Assembly: GCA_943357175.1 (NCBI GenBank)
Contig: CALRGE010000006.1
Coordinates: 25,215-89,214 of the forward strand
DNA from: Candidatus Peribacteria bacterium
GTDB taxonomy: Bacteria; Patescibacteriota; Gracilibacteria; UBA1369; 2-02-FULL-48-14
Direction: 5' to 3'
DNA: 64,000 nucleotides
Below, in pieces: positions 42,339 to 53,982 of the stretch; the stretch's first letter is position 1, and each line of letters starts with the position of its first letter. Made by a program: the position numbers and the translations under genes. The notes under the pieces were generated by a model. That model worked only from the letters and a program-made list of their open reading frames with translations. It was not told where the DNA came from and ran no database searches.

Positions 42339-42375
42339 ATTGGCTTGGTTAAAGTTTAGTGATTTTTTATTTCAG

Positions 42376-42906
42376 CTAACGTACGTGCCTGAACCGGTTG
42401 AGCTCTGTTGTGTGATGTTGCGAAAAATCCACCAGGTAATTTTTAACTGCTTCAATATCAATTTTTTGATGTTCGCCATTAAGTATTTTTTTGTATTCCA
42501 TTAAATCTTTTGGATTCATTACGTAAACTTCTATTTCAAATATTGTTTTGATTTGTGCCGTTTCAAATTGTGCAGGATAGCTTTCCCATGTTTTATTTTT
42601 TTCGTTATAAATTTTTGTTTTATATGCACCACTAATATCAATCATTTGTCCTTCATAATTTAAAACTATTAAATCAAGATCCCATTTTTCATCTTTTAAC
42701 CTATCTGGCCCAAAAGTAATATATTTTTCAATATCTGGGAGTATAGTTTTAAATTTCTCTTCGGGAATATCCAGATCGATATCGTTTACTGAACGTTTTG
42801 CGCCATAAATATGAGCAGCAAAACCTCCTGCAATTTGAAACGGCACATTATGCTTTTTGAGGATATTTACAATCCATTTGAGAGCCTTTTCTAATTTTGA
42901 TTCCAT
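42376..42906 (-). CDS. Nucleotidyltransferase-family cassette protein
   Basis: HNVPFQIAGGFAAHIYGAKRSVNDIDLDI, NTP_transf-type GG..aahiyG..R...DiDl motif. Confidence 0.75.
   Translation of the reverse strand: MESKLEKALKWIVNILKKHNVPFQIAGGFAAHIYGAKRSVNDIDLDIPEEKFKTILPDIEKYITFGPDRLKDEKWDLDLIVLNYEGQMIDISGAYKTKIYNEKNKTWESYPAQFETAQIKTIFEIEVYVMNPKDLMEYKKILNGEHQKIDIEAVKNYLVDFSQHHTTELNRFRHVR
42378..42409 (-). repeat. attC-like site A (short)
   Basis: gctAACgtacgtgcctgaaccggttgagctctGTTgtgtgatg. Confidence 0.5.
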
Positions 42907-42939
42907 GATTTAGATATAAGATTTTTCGCAAGAATCGAG

Positions 42940-42963
42940 CCAGATATGCGCTGTTAAGTGATG
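42940..42963 (-). repeat. attC-like site B (right half only recognisable)
   Basis: ccagatatgcgctGTTaagtgatg; left half degraded. Confidence 0.4.
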
Positions 42964-42977
42964 GACTTTGGCCGTTC

Positions 42978-43157
42978 CTAACACATGCAGTTGAAGCTAT
43001 TCGCATTATTTTTGGTAAGGCCCCATGGATCGCCATTGGATTTTTTGCCGTTCCAAGTTGTACCGTCTTTAGCAGCTTCAACAGCTGACTCACTTGGTAA
43101 ACCTTGAGCACCAGCCTGCCTGAGCTCGACGAGTGCGCCTTGAAGTTTTGCGTTCAT
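42978..43157 (-). CDS. Small cassette protein, unknown
   Basis: MNAKLQGALVELRQAGAQGLPSESAVEAAKDGTTWNGKKSNGDPWGLTKNNANSFNCMC; start chosen inside track ORF. Confidence 0.5.
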   Translation of the reverse strand: MNAKLQGALVELRQAGAQGLPSESAVEAAKDGTTWNGKKSNGDPWGLTKNNANSFNCMC

Positions 43158-43213
43158 ATAATTATAGGTTAATGGATAATTTATTATATCAGAAAGTCCA
43201 AAATATTTCATTT

Positions 43214-43256
43214 AACGTTCGTACGTTTGCGAAGTGCGAGCTGCATATGCGCTGTT
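43214..43256 (-). repeat. attC-like site C (short)
   Basis: tttAACgttcgtacgtttgcgaagtgcgagctgcatatgcgctGTTaagtgatg. Confidence 0.6.
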
Positions 43257-43301
43257 AAGTGATGTATCCAAACAAAATAATCGCAAGTATTACAAAGTAA
43301 T

Positions 43302-43700
43302 TCATATATTAAGTTTTGTTGCTATGAAATACGCTATTGTAGATACTGATGCTGCAAGTGTTGCTCCCCAAGCTAAGTCAACAAAAGTTACAAGTAGCGG
43401 CCAATCTTTAACTGTTGCTAAATTTGTCAAATCATAGGTTGCGTACGTAATAAACCCGAATAAGGCACCAAGAAGAACTGCGTGTATCCAGGACCCTTTT
43501 TCAAGTGCAGGTGAAATAACGAAAACCACCAGACCTGCTATAAATACGAGATAAAAAATAATTGCTGCATACCAATTAACATCAGATTTCATTAGAAAAC
43601 CAATTTGTTTGGCATAAAAATTCTTTGCCACAATTCCAAGCCAAACCATGTCGATGGCAAAAAATACTGGCAGTGCAATAAGATAAAGTTTCCAGAACAT
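43302..43700 (-). CDS. DUF2177-like membrane protein
   Basis: MFWKLYLIALPVFFAIDMVWLGIVAKNFYAKQIG...YDLTNLATVKDWP. Confidence 0.85.
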   Translation of the reverse strand: MFWKLYLIALPVFFAIDMVWLGIVAKNFYAKQIGFLMKSDVNWYAAIIFYLVFIAGLVVFVISPALEKGSWIHAVLLGALFGFITYATYDLTNLATVKDWPLLVTFVDLAWGATLAASVSTIAYFIATKLNI

Positions 43701-43701
43701 A

Positions 43702-44097
43702 TTATTTGTTTAAGTAAGTAATAGTAAGTTGCAAAACTGTGGCAAAAGATCCCCATAGCAAATAGGGCAGATTTGCATATACCACCCAGCGCATATGTGG
43801 CCAAATTGCAACTAATCCCCAGATGAGGGTTCCAAGAACTAGGATAATATCTATAGACGCTAAAACGTTATTTTTTAGTCCAAACTGAATTGGTGTAAAT
43901 GCAAAATTGAAAATTAGGTTTAAAGCAAATGGCAAAGCTACTATCCAAGGTATTTGCTTGGTGAAAGCCTTGTAAAATACTGTTCCATATGAGGCTGCAA
44001 TCAAAATGTACAGCACTGACCAAACAGGACCAAATAGCCATGCGGGTGGAGACCAAAAAGGTTTTACTAATTGTGTGTACCAAGTTGCTGTAGGCAT
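43702..44097 (-). CDS. TspO/MBR family protein
   Basis: WYTQLVKPFWSPPAWLFGPVWSVLYILIAASYG; Trp/Pro-rich 5-TM pattern. Confidence 0.88.
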   Translation of the reverse strand: MPTATWYTQLVKPFWSPPAWLFGPVWSVLYILIAASYGTVFYKAFTKQIPWIVALPFALNLIFNFAFTPIQFGLKNNVLASIDIILVLGTLIWGLVAIWPHMRWVVYANLPYLLWGSFATVLQLTITYLNK

Positions 44098-44165
44098 ATT
44101 TTTGAGGTTAAAGTGGGCAATTGTTCTTACCAATGGCGGTGAAAGTGCTGAGAATTTTTTGTATT

Positions 44166-44534
44166 TTAGTGTTCATAGCTTGGGAAAAACTTTTTTAGTC
44201 GTATCTCTGAAACTATAAGAACAAACAGGCCGACCATCAAAGGAATAATGAAAAGAGGAGACCAGTATTCTGTTATTGGATTGAGTGCTGGACCAGTCAT
44301 GACATACTTGAAGGCTGAAACATCATCAATGAATAGGCCTGCACCTATGCCGAAGAAGATGTGTCCATATTTTGCTCGTCTGAATATAAGTGCAAGAATC
44401 ATTAATAGAAGTCCATAGTAAAAATGATATGACTGGTCGTGGAATATAAATTGCAGCTCCGGCCTGTTTGCGGCTATAGCAACAAAAATTCTCATCACGA
44501 TTATTGTAGCAATAGCTGAGCTTGTTATTTTCAT
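44166..44534 (-). CDS. Multi-TM membrane protein
   Basis: 122 aa with 3-4 TM segments; shares cassette with the TspO and DUF2177 genes. Confidence 0.7.
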   Translation of the reverse strand: MKITSSAIATIIVMRIFVAIAANRPELQFIFHDQSYHFYYGLLLMILALIFRRAKYGHIFFGIGAGLFIDDVSAFKYVMTGPALNPITEYWSPLFIIPLMVGLFVLIVSEIRLKKFFPSYEH

Positions 44535-44549
44535 AAAAATATTTCACTT

Positions 44550-44585
44550 AAGGTCCGGGTATTGGCGAACTGCATATGCGCTGTT
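44550..44585 (-). repeat. attC-like site D (short, degenerate)
   Basis: cacttAAGgtccgggtattggcgaactgcatatgcgctGTTacgc. Confidence 0.45.
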
Positions 44586-44603
44586 ACGCAATTGGCAGAA
44601 AAA

Positions 44604-44859
44604 TTAAACCACATAAAATTGTCTGCTTATAAAAACAAAATATATGGCATAGATAATTGTTGCTATGGCAGCGTACCACTTTAAAATATATGTTTTTTTT
44701 GATTATAAAAAATACTATTAATAGAGCTATTAACGGAAGTGTTACTGATAAAATCCCAGAGTACTCTGGTTTTTGGTAGCCTTCGCTCCAAAACATTCTT
44801 GGGACCCTATCAAAAAATGTATTTTGGAGTTCAGTCCTGTCGTTTGCTGAGAGTGCCAT
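44604..44859 (-). pseudogene. Small membrane protein with apparent frameshift at an 8-A run
   Basis: MALSANDRTELQNTFFDRVPRMFWSEGYQKPEYSGILSVTLPLIALLIVFFIIKK; removing one A from the run (44693-44700) continues as TYILKWYAAIATIIYAIYFVFISRQFYVV*. Confidence 0.5.
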
Positions 44860-44903
44860 ATTTTAGGTGCTTAAATGTTTTAAAATTTTTCTGACTTTCT
44901 TCT

Positions 44904-45020
44904 AACGTCCGTGAATAACCGGAGTTTTTTGTGGCGGTATAATATGGAGTGACGTACCGCCGCCAAACTTGTGTGAACGAATGAAGCGTAGCGGGATGAG
45001 TGAACCAGTTATTCATTGTT
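44904..45020 (-). repeat. attC-like site E (long)
   Basis: AACgtccGTGAATAACcgg...ccaGTTATTCATtGTT; outer and inner stems complementary. Confidence 0.8.
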
Positions 45021-45042
45021 AGACGAGAATTCTGCTCCACCT

Positions 45043-45468
45043 TTACTCGACAAGTTTCTTTATGCCATTAAGTACCATATTCCAGCTACTTTCTGAGTGC
45101 TCCCGTGCCTGCTCATTAGCAAACCCTTTTTGGGACACTTTCAAAGTAACATCACCATCTACCCCACTCACTTCATAGGTGACTAAAGAATAGTTTTCCT
45201 CTTTATTTTCTAAACCGGAGAAGCTACTTAAATATGTGTATTGCAATAGTTTTTCAGGTTCAAATTGAACAATCTCTCCTTTATCCTGATATTCTTTACC
45301 TTCATAGCTTCCCTGAAAAACTATGCTACTGCCAACTTGCCAGTTAGTAACAAGTTGTGTCCCAAAAAGGTACTGTTTCACCATTTCAGGATTTGTTAAT
45401 GCTTCCCACACTTTACTCACGGGAGCACTCACTTGAACGGATTTTTGTACGATAAGGTCTTTATTCAT
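45043..45468 (-). CDS. SRPBCC/AHSA1 domain cassette protein
   Basis: KSVQVSAPVSKVWEALTNPEMVKQYLFGTQLVTNWQVGSSIVFQG. Confidence 0.88.
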   Translation of the reverse strand: MNKDLIVQKSVQVSAPVSKVWEALTNPEMVKQYLFGTQLVTNWQVGSSIVFQGSYEGKEYQDKGEIVQFEPEKLLQYTYLSSFSGLENKEENYSLVTYEVSGVDGDVTLKVSQKGFANEQAREHSESSWNMVLNGIKKLVE

Positions 45469-45539
45469 ATGAATTAGGTTAGTTAATGCTAATGTATATA
45501 AATTTAATTATTCGGTAAAGGTGGGGCAGAATTTCGGCT

Positions 45540-45580
45540 AATGTTCGCGCATCATCTGAAGTTCTCATCCCGTTCGTGTT
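45540..45580 (-). repeat. attC-like site F (degenerate)
   Basis: ggctAATgttcgcgcatcatctgaagttc...cgttcgtGTTaaat. Confidence 0.4.
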
Positions 45581-46055
45581 AAATATCGCATTGGTAGTAT
45601 ATAGTTTCTTGTCCATATATTTCACCTCGCTTACTTTCCTTAAAACCACGCGACTCATATAACTTTTGGGCGACAATTTGTTTTGTCGATGTATCCAAAA
45701 ACAATTTTTTGTAGCCTAACTCCTTTGCCTTTTCGATAAGCTTATCTAAGATCAAGCTGCCGATTCCTTTGCCCTGAAGCTCGTGCTTAACTCTCATTCT
45801 TTTTATTTCGGCAGTTGCCTCATCTACTTTTCTCAAGGCGCCCATACCAACAAGCTTATCGTTAATTATGGCTACAAAAAATTCTCCATCATTATCGATA
45901 TATTCTTCTCTGATTCGCTTGAGGTCTTGGTCAAGCTGTTCTCTGGCTTTTGGATCATCGATAAAACTCTCAGTCTGTTTTAAGCCCTCAAGATGAAGGT
46001 TGTAGGTTGCCTCTTTATCTTTTTCCTCAAATTGTCGCAGTCTAATATTTTCCAT
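45579..46055 (-). CDS. GNAT acetyltransferase cassette protein
   Basis: MENIRLRQFEEKDKEATYNLHLEGL...MRVKHELQGKGIGSLILDKLIEKAKELGYKKLFLDTS..A..LYESRGF. Confidence 0.9.
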   Translation of the reverse strand: MENIRLRQFEEKDKEATYNLHLEGLKQTESFIDDPKAREQLDQDLKRIREEYIDNDGEFFVAIINDKLVGMGALRKVDEATAEIKRMRVKHELQGKGIGSLILDKLIEKAKELGYKKLFLDTSTKQIVAQKLYESRGFKESKRGEIYGQETIYYQCDI

Positions 46056-46087
46056 GTTATTGCACCAAGGAACAAAAAATTTCAGAT

Positions 46088-46164
46088 AACGTTCCGGAAT
46101 AGCCGATGTTTTGTGGCGGTACAATGTTTGGGCGAGGCAGCAGCCGAGCTGCATATGCGCTGTT
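46088..46164 (-). repeat. attC-like site G (chimeric halves)
   Basis: gatAACgttccggaatagccgatgttttgtggcgg...gagctgcatatgcgctGTTagctgatg; left and right outer arms not complementary. Confidence 0.6.
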
Positions 46165-46183
46165 AGCTGATGTTGGGCTGTTT

Positions 46184-46782: not shown

Positions 46783-46900
46783 AACGTCCGGGTATAGGCG
46801 ATGTTGTCTGGCGGTATAATATATCGCGAAGCAATCGACCGCTAGACAATATGGGTGAAGCGACGACTAAAAGGAGGAGTGGAACCGCCTATACCCTGTT
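46783..46900 (-). repeat. attC-like site H (long)
   Basis: AACgtccGGGTATAGGCGatgTTGTCTgGCGGT...ACCGCtAGACAA...CGCCTATACCCtGTT; two nested stems. Confidence 0.85.
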
Positions 46901-46918
46901 GTACGATGAAACGAAAAT

Positions 46919-47221
46919 TTACTTTTCCTCGATTTCTACTTCTAGATGACCTTGTTTTTTTGCGAAATGAATTACTGTTTTTTCTCTAAATACACTCCAA
47001 TATGCATCAACTGTGTTTGAATAAGGTGAATCGTAAGGCGGGCAATCATTGCCTTCTACTGTTGCAACAAAATCTTCGTCTTTCATCTTATCGTGATAAT
47101 AATAAATAGGTTTCTTTTTATGATCATGATTCGTAAAAAGGTCACAGCTTATTTGGTATGTTTTGCCCGCCGTTTCAATGGACTTCATTTCGCCTGGTTT
47201 TAGTTTGAATTTTTGAGCCAT
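46919..47221 (-). CDS. Cassette protein, unknown
   Basis: MAQKFKLKPGEMKSIETAGKTYQISCDLFTNHDHKKKPIYYYHDKM...; start chosen outside site I. Confidence 0.65.
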   Translation of the reverse strand: MAQKFKLKPGEMKSIETAGKTYQISCDLFTNHDHKKKPIYYYHDKMKDEDFVATVEGNDCPPYDSPYSNTVDAYWSVFREKTVIHFAKKQGHLEVEIEEK

Positions 47222-47243
47222 ATAAATTTTCGTTTTTTCGTAC

Positions 47244-47359
47244 AACGTCGAGTTTAAACGAAGTTTTGCGGTGGTAAAATAGCACGGAGTGCTTACCACT
47301 GTAAAACTTGGGTGAACGAACGGAGCATAGCGAAGTGTGTGAACCGTTTAAACTCTGTT
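47244..47359 (-). repeat. attC-like site I (long)
   Basis: AACgtcGAGTTTAAACGaag...CCGTTTAAACTCtGTT with inner stem TTTTGCGGTGGTAA/TTACCACTGTAAAA. Confidence 0.85.
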
Positions 47360-47465
47360 ATGTGCTGTTTGCAAGGTTTACACATAATTTATTTTAAAAT
47401 CTTATTCCGATTTCATTTCTTAAACTATTTATATTGCCTAAATTTACCGACAGCAAATGGCATAT

Positions 47466-47571
47466 AACGTCCGTGAATAACTGAAGTTTGGTAAGGCTAT
47501 AATATCGCGAAGCGGTAGCCTTGCCAAACTTGGGAGAACGAACGCAGTGAGTGAACCAGTTATTCACTGTT
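47466..47571 (-). repeat. attC-like site J (long; identical to site O)
   Basis: AACgtcCGTGAATAACTGaagTTTGGTAAGGCTa...tAGCCTTGCCAAActt...CAGTTATTCACtGTT. Confidence 0.88.
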
Positions 47572-47587
47572 AGCCGTTGTGCCAAAT

Positions 47588-47935
47588 TTACTCATTTGGG
47601 AACTCTTCACCTGTTTTTATATATCTCCATGTGAATTTAGCCCACATACCCGCCCATTTCTTTGCGTCATCGATTGTTGGCGTTGATTCTGGATAATCAC
47701 CGATGCAAACCATTTTCCCTCCCCGTGAGTTATCACGAAAATGGGTTATGCTGGTTTTAGCATCGCGATCACCATATGTTGGCTGTTCAACGATATCGAT
47801 TTCAAAGTAGGGTTGCCCATTTTCTGAAGTACATGGAACGAGATTGAATTTGAATGTTGCCTCTCCATCTTCGGTCACATATTCGAATGCTTCAACTTTT
47901 GGATTTTCGTCGGGGAGGGAAATGGTTTCTGACAT
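47588..47935 (-). CDS. Cassette protein, unknown (copy 1 of duplicated cassette)
   Basis: MSETISLPDENPKVEAFEYVTEDGEATFKFNLVPCTSENGQPYFEIDIVEQP; paralogue of 52065-52412. Confidence 0.8.
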   Translation of the reverse strand: MSETISLPDENPKVEAFEYVTEDGEATFKFNLVPCTSENGQPYFEIDIVEQPTYGDRDAKTSITHFRDNSRGGKMVCIGDYPESTPTIDDAKKWAGMWAKFTWRYIKTGEEFPNE

Positions 47936-47970
47936 GTTTTTGGGCGGGTTATAAATTTGGCATTTCGGCT

Positions 47971-48068
47971 AACGTTCGCGCATAAACGAAGATGACCAGC
48001 GGTAGCATATCCCGAAGGGTTACCGCTGGTCAATTTGTGCGAACGAAGTGAGCCGTTTATGCGCTGTT
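47971..48068 (-). repeat. attC-like site K (long; homologous to site P)
   Basis: AACgttcGCGCATAAACgaagaTGACCAGCGGTA...TACCGCTGGTCA...GTTTATGCGCtGTT. Confidence 0.88.
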
Positions 48069-48102
48069 AGCGGACAGTTGGGCTGTTTTTATAGCGATTG
48101 CA

Positions 48103-48684
48103 TTATCCGCAATTTTTACAATCTGAACCGTATATCATTTCTGCCCATTTTCTAAGACCCACCATAACATCAACTGAGACTGATCCACTTTTGTACCAAT
48201 GACTGCAATCGCTGTCTGGCACTTCCTCGTCACTGCATATAAAATCACTACCCTTTAGGTATGTTACCAAATCACTACTTGGATTATCTGTGAATATTAC
48301 CACATCACTGAATGTTTTTGAACCAAAGAGTTCATTCAAGCGGTCTTCACCGCAAGCAGCGGCGGTAAACAAGCCAGCGATTTGATGATAATCATCAGCT
48401 GTGGTTTTGTATTCAACTGCGACTGGATAAATCGTACGAGTATAACCGATATCCAACGATACTTTAGATGGTTCTTGGGTACATGCTGAACTGTTAGAGT
48501 CGAGTGAAATGAGCTGACTTGTTTCCTCTTTATCTTCACTTTCTTCAACAGTAGCTGGTTCAGTTTTTAGTTCTTCGATTGCTTTACTTAGAGTATTAAA
48601 TTGTGATTGTTGCCAAATATACATGCCACCGCCAACAACCGCTGCTGTGATAACTATCGATAAGAGAATGTGCCAGACTTTCAT
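48103..48684 (-). CDS. TM-anchored cassette protein, unknown ectodomain
   Basis: N-terminal TM HILLSIVITAAVVGGGMYIWQ similar to 46184-46714; different ectodomain. Confidence 0.75.
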   Translation of the reverse strand: MKVWHILLSIVITAAVVGGGMYIWQQSQFNTLSKAIEELKTEPATVEESEDKEETSQLISLDSNSSACTQEPSKVSLDIGYTRTIYPVAVEYKTTADDYHQIAGLFTAAACGEDRLNELFGSKTFSDVVIFTDNPSSDLVTYLKGSDFICSDEEVPDSDCSHWYKSGSVSVDVMVGLRKWAEMIYGSDCKNCG

Positions 48685-48757
48685 ATTTTTTCAGTTAATG
48701 TTAATTGCGATTGGATAATACTATTTTCGTGAGAATAAAAACAGCCCAATTTCCGCT

Positions 48758-48847
48758 AACGTTCGCGTATATCTGATGTTGCGACCGCAGGGAGCAATAT
48801 GGGTGAGCATTTGCCGTTAGGCAAGCGCGAACCAGATATACGCTGTT
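48758..48847 (-). repeat. attC-like site L
   Basis: AACgttcGCGTATATCTGatgttgcgaccg...CCAGATATACGCtGTT. Confidence 0.85.
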
Positions 48848-48972
48848 AGCTGATGTATTCATTTTCTTTTCCGACAATAGTCGGTTGTTTTTAAAATTTT
48901 CAAATTTCTTTTTCCGTTTTGGGCGAAGGGCAGAGGGGAATTAAAGGGGTGAATGCCCGTAGCCCAAAACAC

Positions 48973-49971
48973 CTAATCAAATAAGTGGTTATCGCTTATT
49001 GTGATTTCTTTATCATTCTCGAACACTTTTTTCTCTTTAACGTCAATAACTATGACACCATATGTTTTTTTTGCATGACAGTTTGGGCAGAGAACCCACA
49101 AATTATTTAACTTCTCATTTCCACCGTCAGCTTTTTCTACAATATGGTCTACGTGTATTATCCATCCCTGCTTTCCGTTTCTTCTTTTATATTCGCACTT
49201 AAAACCACAAACCTGGCATGAATAGTTTTCTATCTTAGCTACACGTCTTTTTTGAATTTGATTCTCTTTCCTTACTTTAATCTCACCATATTTGACTGCA
49301 TGAGAAGCAGAATCACTATTATCAAAATCTTTTGCTTGGTTTAAAAGCTGTTCTTTAGTAAGAATTGATAACTTTTCATCTAAATTTTCAGCTAATTTTC
49401 TTTCTAAAACACTCTCGTCCGAAATTTTTGTACGTGAAAAAAAATCTTGATTCTGATTAAGAATTAAATCTTCGTATATTTCATTTATTCCTGAAGCGCT
49501 TCCATTCACAGGGAATTGTGGAGTTTCCTGATTTAACTTTTGTGATTCTTTATTTAATTTAGATATTTCAATACCATTTTGAGTAAGAATCTCTATTTCT
49601 GCAATAATTTCTTCGGGCTCCTTGTTTTGTATTGCTTTGTCGAGATTAATATTACTGATATCTGAGAATAAATACACCTCTTTAAGGGGTACAACATATG
49701 GCCAATAATTTTCATTGTCTCTTGTTTCTTGTAGCCACCATTTTTCATCTTTAACGGTCAATGGCGCACCTACATAACCAAACCCTATAACACAGGATTT
49801 TGTTTTGTTTGAAAACTCAGATTTTTTTGTAGAATGAAAAATCACAGTATCACCGGGTTGTATTTTATTCTGCCACAAACCTTTATTGTTTTCGTTTAAA
49901 GCCCAATTGTTTAATCCTAGAGCTGTTATCCAATTTTCTGGTGGACCTGTAAAACGCCATATATTATTCAT
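48973..49971 (-). CDS. EVE/PUA-like plus HNH endonuclease (candidate modification-dependent restriction enzyme)
   Basis: N-terminal MNNIWRFTGPPENWITALGLNNWALNENNKGLWQNKIQPGDTVIFHS...VIGFGYVG EVE-like; C-terminal HNH CQVCGFKC...WIIHVDHIVEKADGGNEKLNNLWVLCPNCHAKK. Confidence 0.8.
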   Translation of the reverse strand: MNNIWRFTGPPENWITALGLNNWALNENNKGLWQNKIQPGDTVIFHSTKKSEFSNKTKSCVIGFGYVGAPLTVKDEKWWLQETRDNENYWPYVVPLKEVYLFSDISNINLDKAIQNKEPEEIIAEIEILTQNGIEISKLNKESQKLNQETPQFPVNGSASGINEIYEDLILNQNQDFFSRTKISDESVLERKLAENLDEKLSILTKEQLLNQAKDFDNSDSASHAVKYGEIKVRKENQIQKRRVAKIENYSCQVCGFKCEYKRRNGKQGWIIHVDHIVEKADGGNEKLNNLWVLCPNCHAKKTYGVIVIDVKEKKVFENDKEITISDNHLFD

Positions 49972-49972
49972 A

Positions 49973-50320
49973 TTAAAGTTTGTTATATTTTGTATGTTTT
50001 CCTTTAGATTTTTCAACCGGGTATTTCTTGTCGTTTGAATCAATTTTTTTATCTAGTGCATCTATAATATCAATATCTAAATCATGACTCATGAGTAACA
50101 CCCAATATAGAACGTCGGCTAGCTCCTCTCCAATTTCACTTTTATGAGACTTGATATATTCATTTATCTCCGCACCATTCTTCCATTGGAAATGCTCAAC
50201 AACCTCACTTGCCTCCAGGGAAAGTGATAACGCGACATCTTTTGGATTGTGAAATTGCTTCCAATCTCTAGCGTCGCGAAATTCTATTATTTTTTTTATC
50301 AATTCATTTAGTGATTTCAT
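49973..50320 (-). CDS. MazG-like nucleotide pyrophosphohydrolase
   Basis: MKSLNELIKKIIEFRDARDWKQFHNPKDVALSLSLEASEVVEHFQW...EIGEELADVLYWVLLMSHDLDID. Confidence 0.9.
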   Translation of the reverse strand: MKSLNELIKKIIEFRDARDWKQFHNPKDVALSLSLEASEVVEHFQWKNGAEINEYIKSHKSEIGEELADVLYWVLLMSHDLDIDIIDALDKKIDSNDKKYPVEKSKGKHTKYNKL

Positions 50321-50477
50321 AGGTTTATTGTATTCGTTTTCCCCTTATAAATAAATGTTTTCGGAGCGGAGCGGAGAAAACTCCTTATATTCCCCTCTAA
50401 AAATAAAGAAAAAGAAATTTGAAAATTTTTTAAAACAATTGGGCGGTAGCCCAGAAAAGAAAAGGGATATTTCAGCT

Positions 50478-50591
50478 AACGTTCCAGAATATGCGATGTT
50501 TGCTGGTGATATAATAGCGAACGGAGTGAGCCATCACCAGCAAATATTGGTGTAGCGAGGTGCAGCCGAGCGAAACCGCATATTTTGTGTT
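50478..50591 (-). repeat. attC-like site M (long)
   Basis: AACgttcCAGAATATGCGatgTTTGCTGGTGAT...CATCACCAGCAAA...CGCATATTTTGtGTT. Confidence 0.85.
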
Positions 50592-50660
50592 ATATGTGCC
50601 GAAGGTCGAGCCCGAGTGCAACGTCCCGAAGGGCGGGCGAGCGTAATAAAAGCCGCCGCT

Positions 50661-50921
50661 TTATTTTTGTTTTTTTAATTGTTGAACTAAAGCTCGCAAT
50701 TGGTCAGCTGTTTGAATTTCATCACCATGCTCAAGTAAATGATCGTGCAATGCATCAAGTAGCTCTCCGTTGCCAGCGACTTGTTCGCTGACCAAAATTT
50801 CTCTCCATTGCTCATCAGTAATATCTCTGCCAGCCATTGCTCCAAGAGCATTGATATTGCCCTCGAGATCTTGGTGAGAAATTAGTGCGAGCTTTAGTTC
50901 TAATTTTGGACCGTTTTCCAT
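50661..50921 (-). CDS. Cassette protein, unknown (86 aa)
   Basis: MENGPKLELKLALISHQDLEGNINALGAMAGRDITDEQWREILVSEQ... Confidence 0.7.
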   Translation of the reverse strand: MENGPKLELKLALISHQDLEGNINALGAMAGRDITDEQWREILVSEQVAGNGELLDALHDHLLEHGDEIQTADQLRALVQQLKKQK

Positions 50922-50967
50922 ATGATTTGTTAGTTAATGGTTAAAGGCGGCTTTTATTATGACATAT

Positions 50968-51076
50968 AACGTTCGCGCCTAACCGAAGTTTTTCGTGGCG
51001 GTATAATTTGGAGCGGAGCGACCCACCGCCACAAAAAATTTGGGAGAGCCCGCAGGCGAACCGGTTAGGCGCTGTT
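50968..51076 (-). repeat. attC-like site N (long)
   Basis: AACgttcGCGCCTAACCGaag...CCGGTTAGGCGCtGTT; inner TTTcGTGGCGGT/ACCGCCACaAAA. Confidence 0.88.
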
Positions 51077-51100
51077 AGCTGATGTTTGGCCCCCGTCCCC

Positions 51101-51853
51101 TTAAGCTGCTTTTGCTTGTTGATTTATTCCTCCCGAAAAGACTTGTTGAAATGCTGCTTGAGTATTTGGATCAAAGGCGACAATCTTTATTTCGTCGAAG
51201 GCCGCAAGTTCAAGTACTACGTCATAAAGACCTTTTTGAATAGCACGTGCACTTTCCATTGGATTCACGCCGCCAGCTCCAGCTCCGAGTGCTGGTATTG
51301 ATAAGGTTTTGAATCCTTTGGATTTTGCTTCAATCACAATATTGCGCGTTGCCCTTCTGATAGCTTCTGGTGTTGCCTTACCGCCCCATTCCATGACCGC
51401 GGCGTGAATGATTTGTGGACCAATTTTTCCACCTGTTGTCGTTGCTGCTTTGCCCATCTCAAGTGGCTGTTTCCCACCTTTGGTAATAGCGTCACATGCT
51501 ATTTGAACTTGCGGCCCGCCTTTCGTTCTAATTGCACCCGCAACACCACCACCTAATTTAAGTTGAGTATTTGCGGCGTTTACAATTGCGTCAGTCTTTT
51601 GATTAGTAATATCTCCTTGGGCTATGTTACAACGACCATTCATCAAAGCCGCAAATAGCTTGTCTTTAACTTTGTTCACCATTGGCTCAACTTTGTTTAC
51701 GTCAAAGAGCCTTTGATCCAAAAGCCCTCTTACTTTAGCTATTGCACTTCTTGTTTCTGCCACTACATTATTTGGCAGGCGCTTTGAACGTTCAGCCTGA
51801 GTAAGGTTTTTATCGAGGTAGTCTACGCATTTTGTGAAGGCTTCTTTACACAT
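51101..51853 (-). CDS. Macro-domain (ADP-ribose-binding/hydrolase) cassette protein
   Basis: NIAQGDITNQKTDAIVNAANTQLKLGGGVAGAIRTKGG...LSIPALGAGAGGVNP. Confidence 0.9.
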   Translation of the reverse strand: MCKEAFTKCVDYLDKNLTQAERSKRLPNNVVAETRSAIAKVRGLLDQRLFDVNKVEPMVNKVKDKLFAALMNGRCNIAQGDITNQKTDAIVNAANTQLKLGGGVAGAIRTKGGPQVQIACDAITKGGKQPLEMGKAATTTGGKIGPQIIHAAVMEWGGKATPEAIRRATRNIVIEAKSKGFKTLSIPALGAGAGGVNPMESARAIQKGLYDVVLELAAFDEIKIVAFDPNTQAAFQQVFSGGINQQAKAA

Positions 51854-51942
51854 ATGGCTTAATTAGTGTTAGGGAGGAATAGTCTCATATTTTTACTGTC
51901 CTGTCAACTCTTTTGCCATGATCAGGGGGCCAAATTTCAGCT

Positions 51943-52048
51943 AACGTCCGTGAATAACTGAAGTTTGGTAAGGCTATAATATCGCGAAGCGGTAGCCTTG
52001 CCAAACTTGGGAGAACGAACGCAGTGAGTGAACCAGTTATTCACTGTT
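51943..52048 (-). repeat. attC-like site O (long; identical to site J)
   Basis: Same 106-bp AAC..GTT module as 47466-47571. Confidence 0.88.
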
Positions 52049-52064
52049 AGCCGTTGTGCCAAAT

Positions 52065-52412
52065 TTACTCATTTGGAAATTCCTTACCTGTTTTTATATA
52101 CCTCCATGTAAATTTAGCCCACATACCCGCCCACTTCTTTGCATCTTCAATTGTTGGCGTTGATTCTGGATAATCACCGATACAAACCATTTTCCCTCCC
52201 CGTGAGTTACCACGAAAATGGGTTATGCTGGTTTTTGCATCTCGATCTCCATATTCAGGTTGTTCAACAATATCAATTTCAAAGTATGGTTTCCCATTTT
52301 CGGAAGTAGATGGAACAAGATTGAATTTGAATGTTGCTTCTCCATCTTCAGTAATATATTCAAATGGCTCAATCTGTGGATTTTCGTCGGGGAGGGAAAT
52401 GGTTTCTGACAT
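52065..52412 (-). CDS. Cassette protein, unknown (copy 2 of duplicated cassette)
   Basis: MSETISLPDENPQIEPFEYITEDGEATFKFNLVPSTSENGKPYFEIDIVEQP. Confidence 0.8.
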   Translation of the reverse strand: MSETISLPDENPQIEPFEYITEDGEATFKFNLVPSTSENGKPYFEIDIVEQPEYGDRDAKTSITHFRGNSRGGKMVCIGDYPESTPTIEDAKKWAGMWAKFTWRYIKTGKEFPNE

Positions 52413-52447
52413 ATTGCTAGGCGGGTTATAAATTTGGCATTTCGGCT

Positions 52448-52544
52448 AACGTCCCGCATAAACGAAGATGACCAGCGGTAGAATATCCCGAAGGGTTACC
52501 GCTGGTCAATTTATGCGAACGAAGTGAGCCGTTTATGCGCTGTT
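52448..52544 (-). repeat. attC-like site P (long; homologous to site K)
   Basis: AACgtccCGCATAAACgaagaTGACCAGCGGTA...TACCGCTGGTCA...GTTTATGCGctGTT. Confidence 0.88.
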
Positions 52545-52562
52545 GTACGATGAAATGAAAAA

Positions 52563-52961
52563 TTACATCGGTATATTTGGACCGCAATAGGCACCCATAT
52601 CAAAAGGCCCTTTGTAATCTGCTGGCGGCAAATTTGTATCTGGAGTAACGATGAAACTCACACATCCCATTCCGTTCATTTGCGGGGTGTCATTTACAGC
52701 ATCCATTACTATTTTCGTTTTATCATTTGGAACTCCTTTGTAAACAATTTCACCTGGTCGATCGCCAGCCGCCAGTGCGAGAGGCAGCCCTAGCGAAGCA
52801 ACTTTTGCTGTTGCTACAGTCATAATTGCTGATAGTGCCGGATTATCTTTTGGCAAAACCGTTTCCATTTTTGATAAATCCATAGCTGGTGTTGGATTCT
52901 CAGCAAGTGCTGGAGTGCTAAACGCTAGTGCTGAAGCTAATAGGGCTGCTGATCTAGACAT
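52563..52961 (-). CDS. Secreted cassette protein, integrase-proximal
   Basis: Signal peptide MSRSAALLASALAFSTPALAE; no family recognised. Confidence 0.75.
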   Translation of the reverse strand: MSRSAALLASALAFSTPALAENPTPAMDLSKMETVLPKDNPALSAIMTVATAKVASLGLPLALAAGDRPGEIVYKGVPNDKTKIVMDAVNDTPQMNGMGCVSFIVTPDTNLPPADYKGPFDMGAYCGPNIPM

Positions 52962-53051
52962 AAAATATTGTGATTAAAGGTTGGGTGCCAAATTATCACA
53001 TAATGATAACTTTGTCAAGTCGCTAATCTGTAAATTTTTCATTTTTTCGTA

Positions 53052-53123
53052 CAACTCCATCTTGTGCGAACTTACAACCTGAAGGAGTTGGATGAAAGGT
53101 TTTATTCAGGACTTATTCAGCAC
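53052..53123. promoter_or_regulatory. Candidate attI-like region
   Basis: Junction between first cassette and integrase; CAACTCC (53052-53058)/GGAGTTG (53084-53090) dyad and tandem TTATTCAGGAC/TTATTCAGCAC (53102-53123). Confidence 0.45.
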
Positions 53124-53139
53124 GGGGTGATTATAGTAC

Positions 53140-53982
53140 TTGTGTCATTTAATTGGAAGTATGCACAAGATGGACCACCCAGGGATACAAAAATTGGTGA
53201 GGGAGCTGAGGCTGAGGAACTATAGTTATAGGACTATTCAAGCCTATAAAGATCAGGTTTGGGCTTACTTTTTGTTTTGTGGGCAGGATTGGGAGAAGAG
53301 TAATAGGCAGAAAGTTGAGGATTTTATTCTGAAGAGGCGGGATGATGGATTGTCTCCACAAACAATAAATTTGAGTGTGCAGGCTCTGCAGTTTTTCTAT
53401 AGACATGTGCAGATGCAGCATTTTGAGAAGATTCGGGCTATGAAAAAACAGCAGAAATTGCCGGTGGTTTTAAGTAGAGAAGAGATTTTTGAGATTTTAG
53501 GGAAGATTGAAAATGAAAAACATAGAGCAATTTTGGCACTGAGTTATGGTGCGGGCCTTCGAGTTAGTGAGGTTTTAAAGTTAAGAATTTGTGATTTGGA
53601 TTTTCAGGAGGGAATTGTGAAAATTCGAAATGGAAAAGGCGGTAAAGATAGAATTAGTTTGCTTCCGGCAGTATTGAAAGATGAGTTGAAAGCAATGTGT
53701 GTTAGGCGCGGTGAAACTCGATATCTTTTTGAAAGTATTCGAGTTGGTAAATTGACAACGCGAACAGCACAGAAAGTTTTTGAGGTGGCTTTGAAGAAAA
53801 GTAGTATACGAAAAGAAGCTTCATTTCACTCTTTGCGGCATAGTTTTGCTACTCATTTACTCGAGAATGGTGTGAACTTGAGGTGTATTCAGGAGTTGCT
53901 TGGCCACAATGATGTTCGTACAACAGAAAGATACACTCATGTTTCTAAAAGTCTGATTCAGACGATTAAAAGTCCGCTATAG
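53140..53982 (+). CDS. Tyrosine recombinase, candidate integron-like integrase
   Basis: GAGLRVSEVLKLRICDLDF, FHSLRHSFATHLLENGVNLRCIQELLGHNDVRTTERYTHVSKSLIQTIKSPL: R..H-x-x-R..H..Y catalytic set. Start could be TTG 53140 or ATG 53161/53170. Confidence 0.95.
   Translation: MCHLIGSMHKMDHPGIQKLVRELRLRNYSYRTIQAYKDQVWAYFLFCGQDWEKSNRQKVEDFILKRRDDGLSPQTINLSVQALQFFYRHVQMQHFEKIRAMKKQQKLPVVLSREEIFEILGKIENEKHRAILALSYGAGLRVSEVLKLRICDLDFQEGIVKIRNGKGGKDRISLLPAVLKDELKAMCVRRGETRYLFESIRVGKLTTRTAQKVFEVALKKSSIRKEASFHSLRHSFATHLLENGVNLRCIQELLGHNDVRTTERYTHVSKSLIQTIKSPL

Follow-up and report, generated by a model that had tools for sequence, protein, structure and literature searches.

The window analyzed here, a 64,000-nucleotide (nt) stretch of contig CALRGE010000006.1 from a Candidatus Peribacteria bacterium, one of the Patescibacteria, whose members are tiny and uncultured, carries an integron-like cassette array at 42.4–53.1 kb, which lies on the minus strand from 53055 down to ~42370 and is headed by the gene for a tyrosine recombinase of 280 amino acids (aa). 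As judged by sequence comparison with related genomes, the cassettes were shown to be built of two modules that assort independently, namely a linker that resembles an integron attC site and a gene body bounded by its own arms. The breakpoints lie at the inner core of the linker, AAC, and, as in ordinary integrons, at its outer core, GTT, and a change of linker leaves the arms attached to their gene. The array is probably an integron-like system with two separable modules, a generic bottom-strand hairpin linker and an arm-bounded body, with strands exchanged at both cores by the adjacent recombinase.

Linkers and gene bodies part at the inner core

Linkers and bodies were compared at 172 sites in 47 related genomes. 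Two sets of pairs were collected, set A comprising 25 pairs with body ends alike at 80% or more and unrelated linkers, and set B comprising 45 pairs with linkers at least 93% identical and unrelated bodies. The pairs are not independent, as they come from 11 body-end families and 27 linker families, and the pattern recurs across most body families. Identity in set A was mostly 0.7–1.0 up to AAC and dropped to background one base past it. The set B pairs displayed background identity before AAC, values near 1.0 after it and background again past GTT. Among 87 pairs of homologous body ends the linkers were unrelated in 71, while the body's own linker was common to both members in 13, against a baseline of 0.9%. 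For 101 pairs of homologous body starts, the preceding linker was common in 3 (p 0.07).

The original prediction, made from this stretch alone, had proposed that linkers and bodies are separately assorted modules, and the larger sample supports it through the unrelated linkers on most homologous ends, the presence of similar linkers on unrelated bodies and the step at AAC. Constant co-inheritance of linker and gene, the outcome named there as contrary to the proposal, is contradicted by the same counts, with short-term co-inheritance nevertheless enriched; linker and gene would seem to travel together for a while and to part later. The integron rule that attC is inherited with its gene and that crossover is confined to the outer core does not describe these cassettes.

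In one trio of cassettes, a gene X is followed by linker 1 in genome G085, while its homologue in G043 (69% protein identity) has an identical arm, AGATCAGCGCAACATCAGACAAC, followed by linker 2, which matches at 93/94 nt the linker of an unrelated gene in G054. Similarly, the 126-aa gene of the window and its homologue in G061 share 75% protein identity and an end arm identical up to AAC bar one core base, and their linkers are identical only at the background level of 0.69. A 108-nt linker was found to be identical at 108/108 positions in G086 and G034, with flanks unrelated on both sides. Finally, two loci (L036 and L246) share a linker (96%) contiguous with the start of the next body, which is also alike, and differ in the linker's own gene and in the next linker; this is the pattern expected of inner-core exchange, as though cutting had taken place there. 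The sample was also searched for neighbouring genes kept in order around an altered linker, a pattern that would tell a swap of hairpin caps from circles cut at the inner core, and no adjacency was conserved.

One alternative is that cassettes are repeatedly born when new genes receive a copy of a resident linker, with no later exchange of linkers. Linker families are indeed enriched within genomes, where 14 of 507 pairs of linkers on unrelated genes reached 0.90 identity or more, compared with 57 of 14199 otherwise; several linkers of one family occur in G044. Sedentary chromosomal integrons, with their homogeneous attC sites (PMC8618304), offer a parallel, and it was known before that unrelated genes of a single genome can carry the same attC in such integrons. 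However, the same gene was found with the same end arm and unrelated linkers, and independent births would not recreate identical arms. Because the arms of set A are kept, the linker change came after the cassette existed, which argues against births as its cause, and because the arms stay with the gene, exchange between existing cassettes fits better than cassette birth. Births as the sole process are contradicted by the trio and by set A and are considered unlikely, but they could act alongside exchange. The further proposal, that the modular pattern is a possible footprint of cassette genesis, was not shown; in the decisive cases a gene complete with its arms is present on both sides of the comparison, and the difference is confined to the linker.

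It could also be that linkers are reshuffled by recombinase-free homologous recombination, gene conversion or template switching. Mosaic linkers do exist (12 of 105 scored sites have a poorly paired L stem, the stem adjoining the cores, and in some the two halves best match different linkers). These mosaics, however, break within the linker and lose the L stem, while the boundary in sets A and B is AAC, where only 3–4 nt are common, and it coincides at both ends with the presumed recombinase cut site. This explanation of the main pattern is therefore held to be about as unlikely as repeated birth. Recombination of the ordinary kind within linkers occurs as well, as the broken-stem mosaics show, and leaves a different trace.

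A third possibility is that the array is an ordinary integron in which constraint makes linkers alike whatever their origin, so that their matches, including that of K and P (below), carry no history. There is a common structural consensus, random linkers being ~63% identical, and two linkers of the window (J and O, below) are identical although their gene differs by 10%. Yet the 27 linker families (grouped at 0.88 or more) differ from one another throughout, and matches of 93–108 identical positions between families of a single order cannot stem from a consensus that others do not follow, which makes this possibility very improbable. Chimerism of metagenome-assembled genomes (MAGs), in which repeated linkers misguide the assembler into joining the wrong cassettes, is hardly credible: many contigs do end beside the recombinase or within an array, and near-identical linkers recur in single genomes, but a misjoin within a repeat cannot set a different linker beside an unchanged gene end. 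The pattern is also consistent over many independent genomes, with its step at AAC and not inside the repeat.

Linkers K and P within the window

The original prediction had started from two linkers of the window, K and P, and what it said of them was partly confirmed. They are attC-like and 96% identical (4 differences in 92 nt), far above chance given that the 99th percentile of between-genome linker identity in the sample is 0.88. Their homology ends exactly at the inner core, the upstream bodies (of a 193-aa and a 132-aa gene) are without detectable similarity, and the bases inside the inner core match the gene's own other end in both cases: K ...GTTAGCGGACAGTTGGGCTGTTTTTAT matches the start of the 193-aa body, GTTAGCGGAAATTGGGCTGTTTTTATT, and P ...GTTGTACGATGAAATGAAAAATTAC matches the start of the 132-aa body, GTTGTACGAAAAAATGAAAAATTTAC. 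The claimed break at the outer core, on the other hand, was not found. The homology runs on through a 115-aa cassette duplicated behind K and P (405 nt, 40 differences) to the linkers J and O, which are identical at 100/100 positions, and ends at the outer core of J and O, so that the shared unit is linker, 115-aa body and linker. Because the homology continues through the outer core, this single pair in a single array proves little. The identity of J and O next to a gene divergence of ~10% would be surprising if the block had been copied whole (binomial p 3e-5), and could reflect recent exchange or strong constraint.

Arms of the gene bodies

The bodies are bounded by cassette-specific arms of the form GTTNNNNGA-AA-T... 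and ...A-CA-TCNNNNAAC; every intact body starts with GTTNNNNGAAAT and ends, read on the other strand, with GTTNNNNGATGT. Three properties of the arms had been absent from the original prediction: they reach 20–24 nt or more, no intact cassette is without them, and they contain a conserved mismatch. Complementarity between the two ends of a body extends to about position 20–24 and is absent beyond. In the 132-aa gene body, for example, the start arm (53034–53055) pairs with the end arm (52542–52563) at 20/22 positions. An exact run of at least 9 past position 11 was present in 62% of 102 complete bodies, whereas for random pairings the share was 1%, and across a linker 1.8%; the bodies lacking such a run often have an extra hairpin in the end arm. 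Arm changes are concerted even for arms ~6 kb apart, and since the extension shows no sequence consensus, it would act by pairing. Positions 10–11 are nearly always A.A and A.C on the top strand, equivalent to T.T and T.G on the bottom. At position 6 an end-arm G tends to face a start-arm A, which gives a T.G pair on the bottom strand, and differences are more frequent in the core bases than in the arm extension. In known integron cassettes, pairing extends over 9–11 nt at the R arms (PMC2727003). The gene-specific arms make readable a gene/attC boundary that is otherwise invisible.

Structure of the linkers and the folded strand

In gene direction, the first half of a site reads ...TACATCNNNNAAC-A-L''-GG(T/C)TC-hairpin 1-CCCA(T/A)(A/G)TT- and the second half -hairpin 2-AC(A/T)TC-L'-(GG|GA|AA)AC-GTTNNNNGAAATA..., and linkers are ~60–180 nt long, mostly near 110 nt. 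An alignment of 37 sites contained 22 consensus pairs with compensatory changes in 19; the covariation of hairpin 2 is independent support, as this hairpin played no part in site finding. The R''/R' cores of integrons (RYYYAAC/GTTRRRY) and the L''/L' stem are present, with the consensus GTTRKVYGA and AAC/GTT invariant. The extrahelical base that marks L'' in integrons is lacking, the L stems being continuous throughout the alignment, and among the covariance-model matches 79 of 105 scored sites had no extrahelical base.

In hairpin 2, 153 mispairs had A.C on the top strand, equivalent to G.T on the bottom, and 12 had G.T on the top; with one dominant position removed, the counts were 48 and 12. 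Likewise, 59 of 65 non-Watson–Crick pairs at arm position 11 are A.C on the top strand. As top-strand A.C far outnumbers G.T, the bottom strand is, on this measure, the strand under folding constraint, as in classical integrons. Strong sites of any one array share their orientation, the exception being one short mixed contig.

The spacer before the outer GTT (GGAC, GAAC or AAAC) shows almost no tie, in its variation, to the linker or to the body that follows; when its travel with either was tested (GG, GA or AA before AC-GTT), it followed neither. One possible cause is an unpaired C-to-T change on the bottom strand. In hairpin 2 (for example at 46813–46822, plus strand) the bottom strand has a conserved GGTATAAT inside an asymmetric bulge, which resembles a −10 promoter box pointing against gene direction. 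Mosaic linkers concentrate in distal array parts; in those of locus L256 (G061) and of the window at 46078–46172, L'' and L' come from different families and the stem is broken.

The recombinase lacks the IntI-specific insert

The array recombinase matched the integron integrase model TIGR02249 with 205 bits, below the cut-off of 265 and in two pieces only, and NF040815 with 212.7 bits. It aligned to VchIntIA (2a3v) only over residues 9–180 and 245–316, and the spacing from KDR to HxLRH, in the patch III region, is 60 residues, whereas a true IntI from a genome in the same order (G055, 461 bits), which served as the reference, has 102; a resistance-plasmid IntI was truncated and was set aside. 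The IntI-specific (I2) domain is thus missing from the array recombinase. In phylogeny, true IntI fell outside the insert-less group with weak support (0.6–0.8), and ancestry is not claimed. Genome G055 carries, besides its true IntI (L301:2406-3344), an insert-less recombinase and 21 hairpin sites. The recombinase of G023 (L300:1378-2307), nested in the insert-less family, has a ~40-residue insertion at the I2 position; extrahelical bases were sought at its sites and were absent there too.

Hairpin sites were present in 87 of 148 related genomes, which include records titled Candidatus Peregrinibacteria and Gracilibacteria. The I2-less recombinase is tied to these arrays: sites occurred in 56 of 62 relatives carrying a close recombinase and in 31 of 86 without one (Fisher p 9e-12). 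More distant homologues (36–51% identity) were found in Paenibacillus, Bacteroidetes, Fibrobacteres, Treponema and archaeal MAGs (L064–L127), and the site finder used here detected no such arrays in the 10-kb flanks of the homologues from Paenibacillus, Bacteroidetes, Treponema and others.

A proposed mechanism

The boundaries between modules fall on AAC and GTT, where cutting is presumed to occur. We infer the action of a recombinase: the adjacent tyrosine recombinase would exchange strands at both cores, inner and outer. Two routes can be envisaged. In the first, the top-strand hairpin would be used and crossover would take place in R'' instead of R'. In the second, both strand exchanges would be completed between two folded hairpins, swapping their caps, that is, the linkers. 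A circle of any linker and one body would unite the body's own arms, and the site would then work with whichever linker it held. With no I2 insert and no extrahelical bases in the L stems, the system would lack the IntI features that enforce one-strand, one-core exchange. In IntI systems, the crossover shifts to R'' instead of R' once a single extrahelical base is reversed (PMC2727003), and the combination of extrahelical bases and I2 keeps the second strand from being exchanged (PMC4792948). A bolder version, offered tentatively, is that in an I2-less integron-like branch two folded single-strand hairpins go through both strand exchanges, with the result that linkers are swapped and cassettes are assembled from interchangeable linkers, arms or shells, and cargo.

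Several observations weigh against exchange at both cores as the account of this system. The data are static MAG sequences, in which no recombination was observed. In set A, identity dips to 0.6–0.8 in the four core bases before AAC, and some events may therefore be inexact at AAC. The association of bodies with the preceding linker is barely above background, and circles of preceding linker and body therefore cannot be common. Sharing of linkers within genomes needs copying, which reciprocal exchange does not give. The lack of extrahelical bases is partly ascertained, as the site finder demanded an intact L stem. Finally, the conserved asymmetries (spacer A versus GAAC, the T.T/G.T pair and the bulge of hairpin 2) point to a strand choice that remains strong; together with the uniform site orientation they make frequent top-strand insertion at attI unlikely.

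Relation to known systems

On sequence grounds, the system is one that works like an integron. It has the layout, an attI-like site, the cores and the bottom-strand fold, and it departs from integrons in the I2 domain, the extrahelical bases and the inheritance of attC with the gene. With sedentary chromosomal integrons (IntI, attI, attC) it shares a recombinase divergent from the array, an attI-like junction, same-oriented cassettes, R''/R' cores AAC/GTT, a bottom-strand hairpin and similar attC-like sites within a genome. It differs in the absence of the I2 insert and of the extrahelical L-stem base, in linker exchange at the inner core, and in R-arm pairing over 20–24 nt instead of the shorter span given above. 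The superintegron of Vibrio cholerae, with its Vibrio cholerae repeat (VCR) sites, has near-identical attC on unrelated genes, a likeness to the present array; here, however, linker families are diverse and arms cassette-specific, so that the module boundary is visible, and the same gene occurs with unrelated linkers. Closest in length and domain layout are the tyrosine recombinases of XerA type from archaea and bacteria (4a8e, 5hxy), but Xer acts on double-stranded dif-like sites, whereas the array recombinase adjoins hairpin sites. Archaeal integrons likewise lie outside classical hosts and their IntIs are stated to carry the IntI-specific domain (PMC9668308); the IntegronFinder rule applied there would miss the array recombinase. 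As that rule requires the domain, such recombinases would be overlooked in integron surveys. No description of integrons in the Candidate Phyla Radiation (CPR)/Patescibacteria was found in the open literature, the search excluding subscription papers and preprints.

The I2 insert has been taken as the innovation that allowed single-strand hairpin recombination, and a lack of intermediates has been noted (PMC7790495). If the proposed double exchange is correct, the array would show, in a present-day system, that hairpins can recombine in the absence of the very domain to which this ability has been ascribed. Cassette origin is stated to have no reliable model (PMC4792948). A precise swap of the hairpin, with the gene and its matched ends kept, would be unexpected from known integrons and would bear on cassette assembly. 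Which cores are cut, and how linkers and genes are joined, become directly testable questions.

Layout of the array

The cassettes stand in tandem, mostly with one gene each, in a single orientation and each with an attC-like site (Table 1). An attI-like junction adjoins the recombinase gene, and the first cassette appears to start there; a consensus of approximately AAGTTCGTATANAANGA/GTT is found upstream of the first body at the same position in about ten other genomes. A covariance model built here located 14 sites in the window, ten of them strong. One site of the distal end scored fully (82.8 bits) and the others weakly, at 15–34 bits. A search against Rfam gave a tRNA as the sole match.

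Table 1. Features of the cassette array, in order from the recombinase (positions in the window).
Feature	Position	Strand	Evidence or remark
Tyrosine recombinase, 280 aa, XerA/IntI-like, without IntI-specific insert	53140..53982	+	Pfam Phage_integrase 3e-39
attI-like junction ..TTCGCACAAGATGGA/GTT, start of first body	53053..53070	-	Position and consensus kept in ~10 other genomes
Body of 132-aa secreted-protein gene (52563-52961) with two arms	52542..53055	-	
Linker P, attC-like; outer core 52448-52450, inner core 52542-52544	52448..52544	-	Covariance model 85 bits
115-aa cassette body, copy 1 (gene 52065-52412)	52046..52450	-	40 differences from copy 2 in 405 nt; first and last 30 nt identical
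Linker O	51943..52048	-	100/100 nt identical to linker J; 108 bits
Body with macro-domain gene 51101-51853, arms present	51074..51945	-	Pfam Macro 1e-25
Linker, 96% identical to G020 linker on unrelated gene	50968..51076	-	Covariance model
Body of 86-aa gene; extra hairpin interrupts end arm	50589..50970	-	
Linker	50478..50591	-	Covariance model 100.7 bits
Long-armed shell body: HNH protein (48973-50043) and MazG-like protein (49973-50320)	48845..50480	-	
Linker	48758..48847	-	Covariance model 80.6 bits
Body of 193-aa transmembrane-protein gene (48103-48684) with arms	48066..48760	-	
Linker K	47971..48068	-	4 differences from P in 92 nt; covariance model 93.9 bits
115-aa cassette body, copy 2 (gene 47588-47935)	47569..47973	-	
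Linker J	47466..47571	-	Covariance model; identical to O
Gene-less 112-nt body with proper arms, between two linkers	47357..47468	-	
Linker	47244..47359	-	Covariance model 92.4 bits
Body of 126-aa gene (open frame 46919-47299)	46898..47246	-	G061 homologue: same end arm, other linker
Linker, 95% identical to G020 linker on unrelated gene	46783..46900	-	Covariance model
Distal, partly decayed array end	42368..46172	-	Sites 46078-46172 (L stem broken), 44894-45028, 44540-44593, 43204-43264, 42368-42417

Long-armed shells and their cargo

Some bodies have ends of 75–200 nt that resemble those of other cassettes although the contents are entirely different, and these shells with changing cargo, rather than K and P, may bear on cassette birth. 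The HNH/MazG body of the window has ends of 131–142 nt that are 90–92% identical to those of bodies in G048 and G093, the cargo being a type III restriction system in G048 and one of type IIG in G093. A second shell is common to an EcoRI-type system in G048 and a HaeIII-type system in G106. Such shells may be one way in which restriction systems unrelated to each other spread among Patescibacteria. Shells with similar ends and unrelated cargo were seen, besides that at 48845–50480 in the window, at L037:5242-10519, L037:11586-15318, L261:6770-12724 and L270:12714-15707, and the cargo is mostly restriction-modification: type III, EcoRI-type with an AriA-like ATPase, type IIG, HaeIII-type and GmrSD-like.

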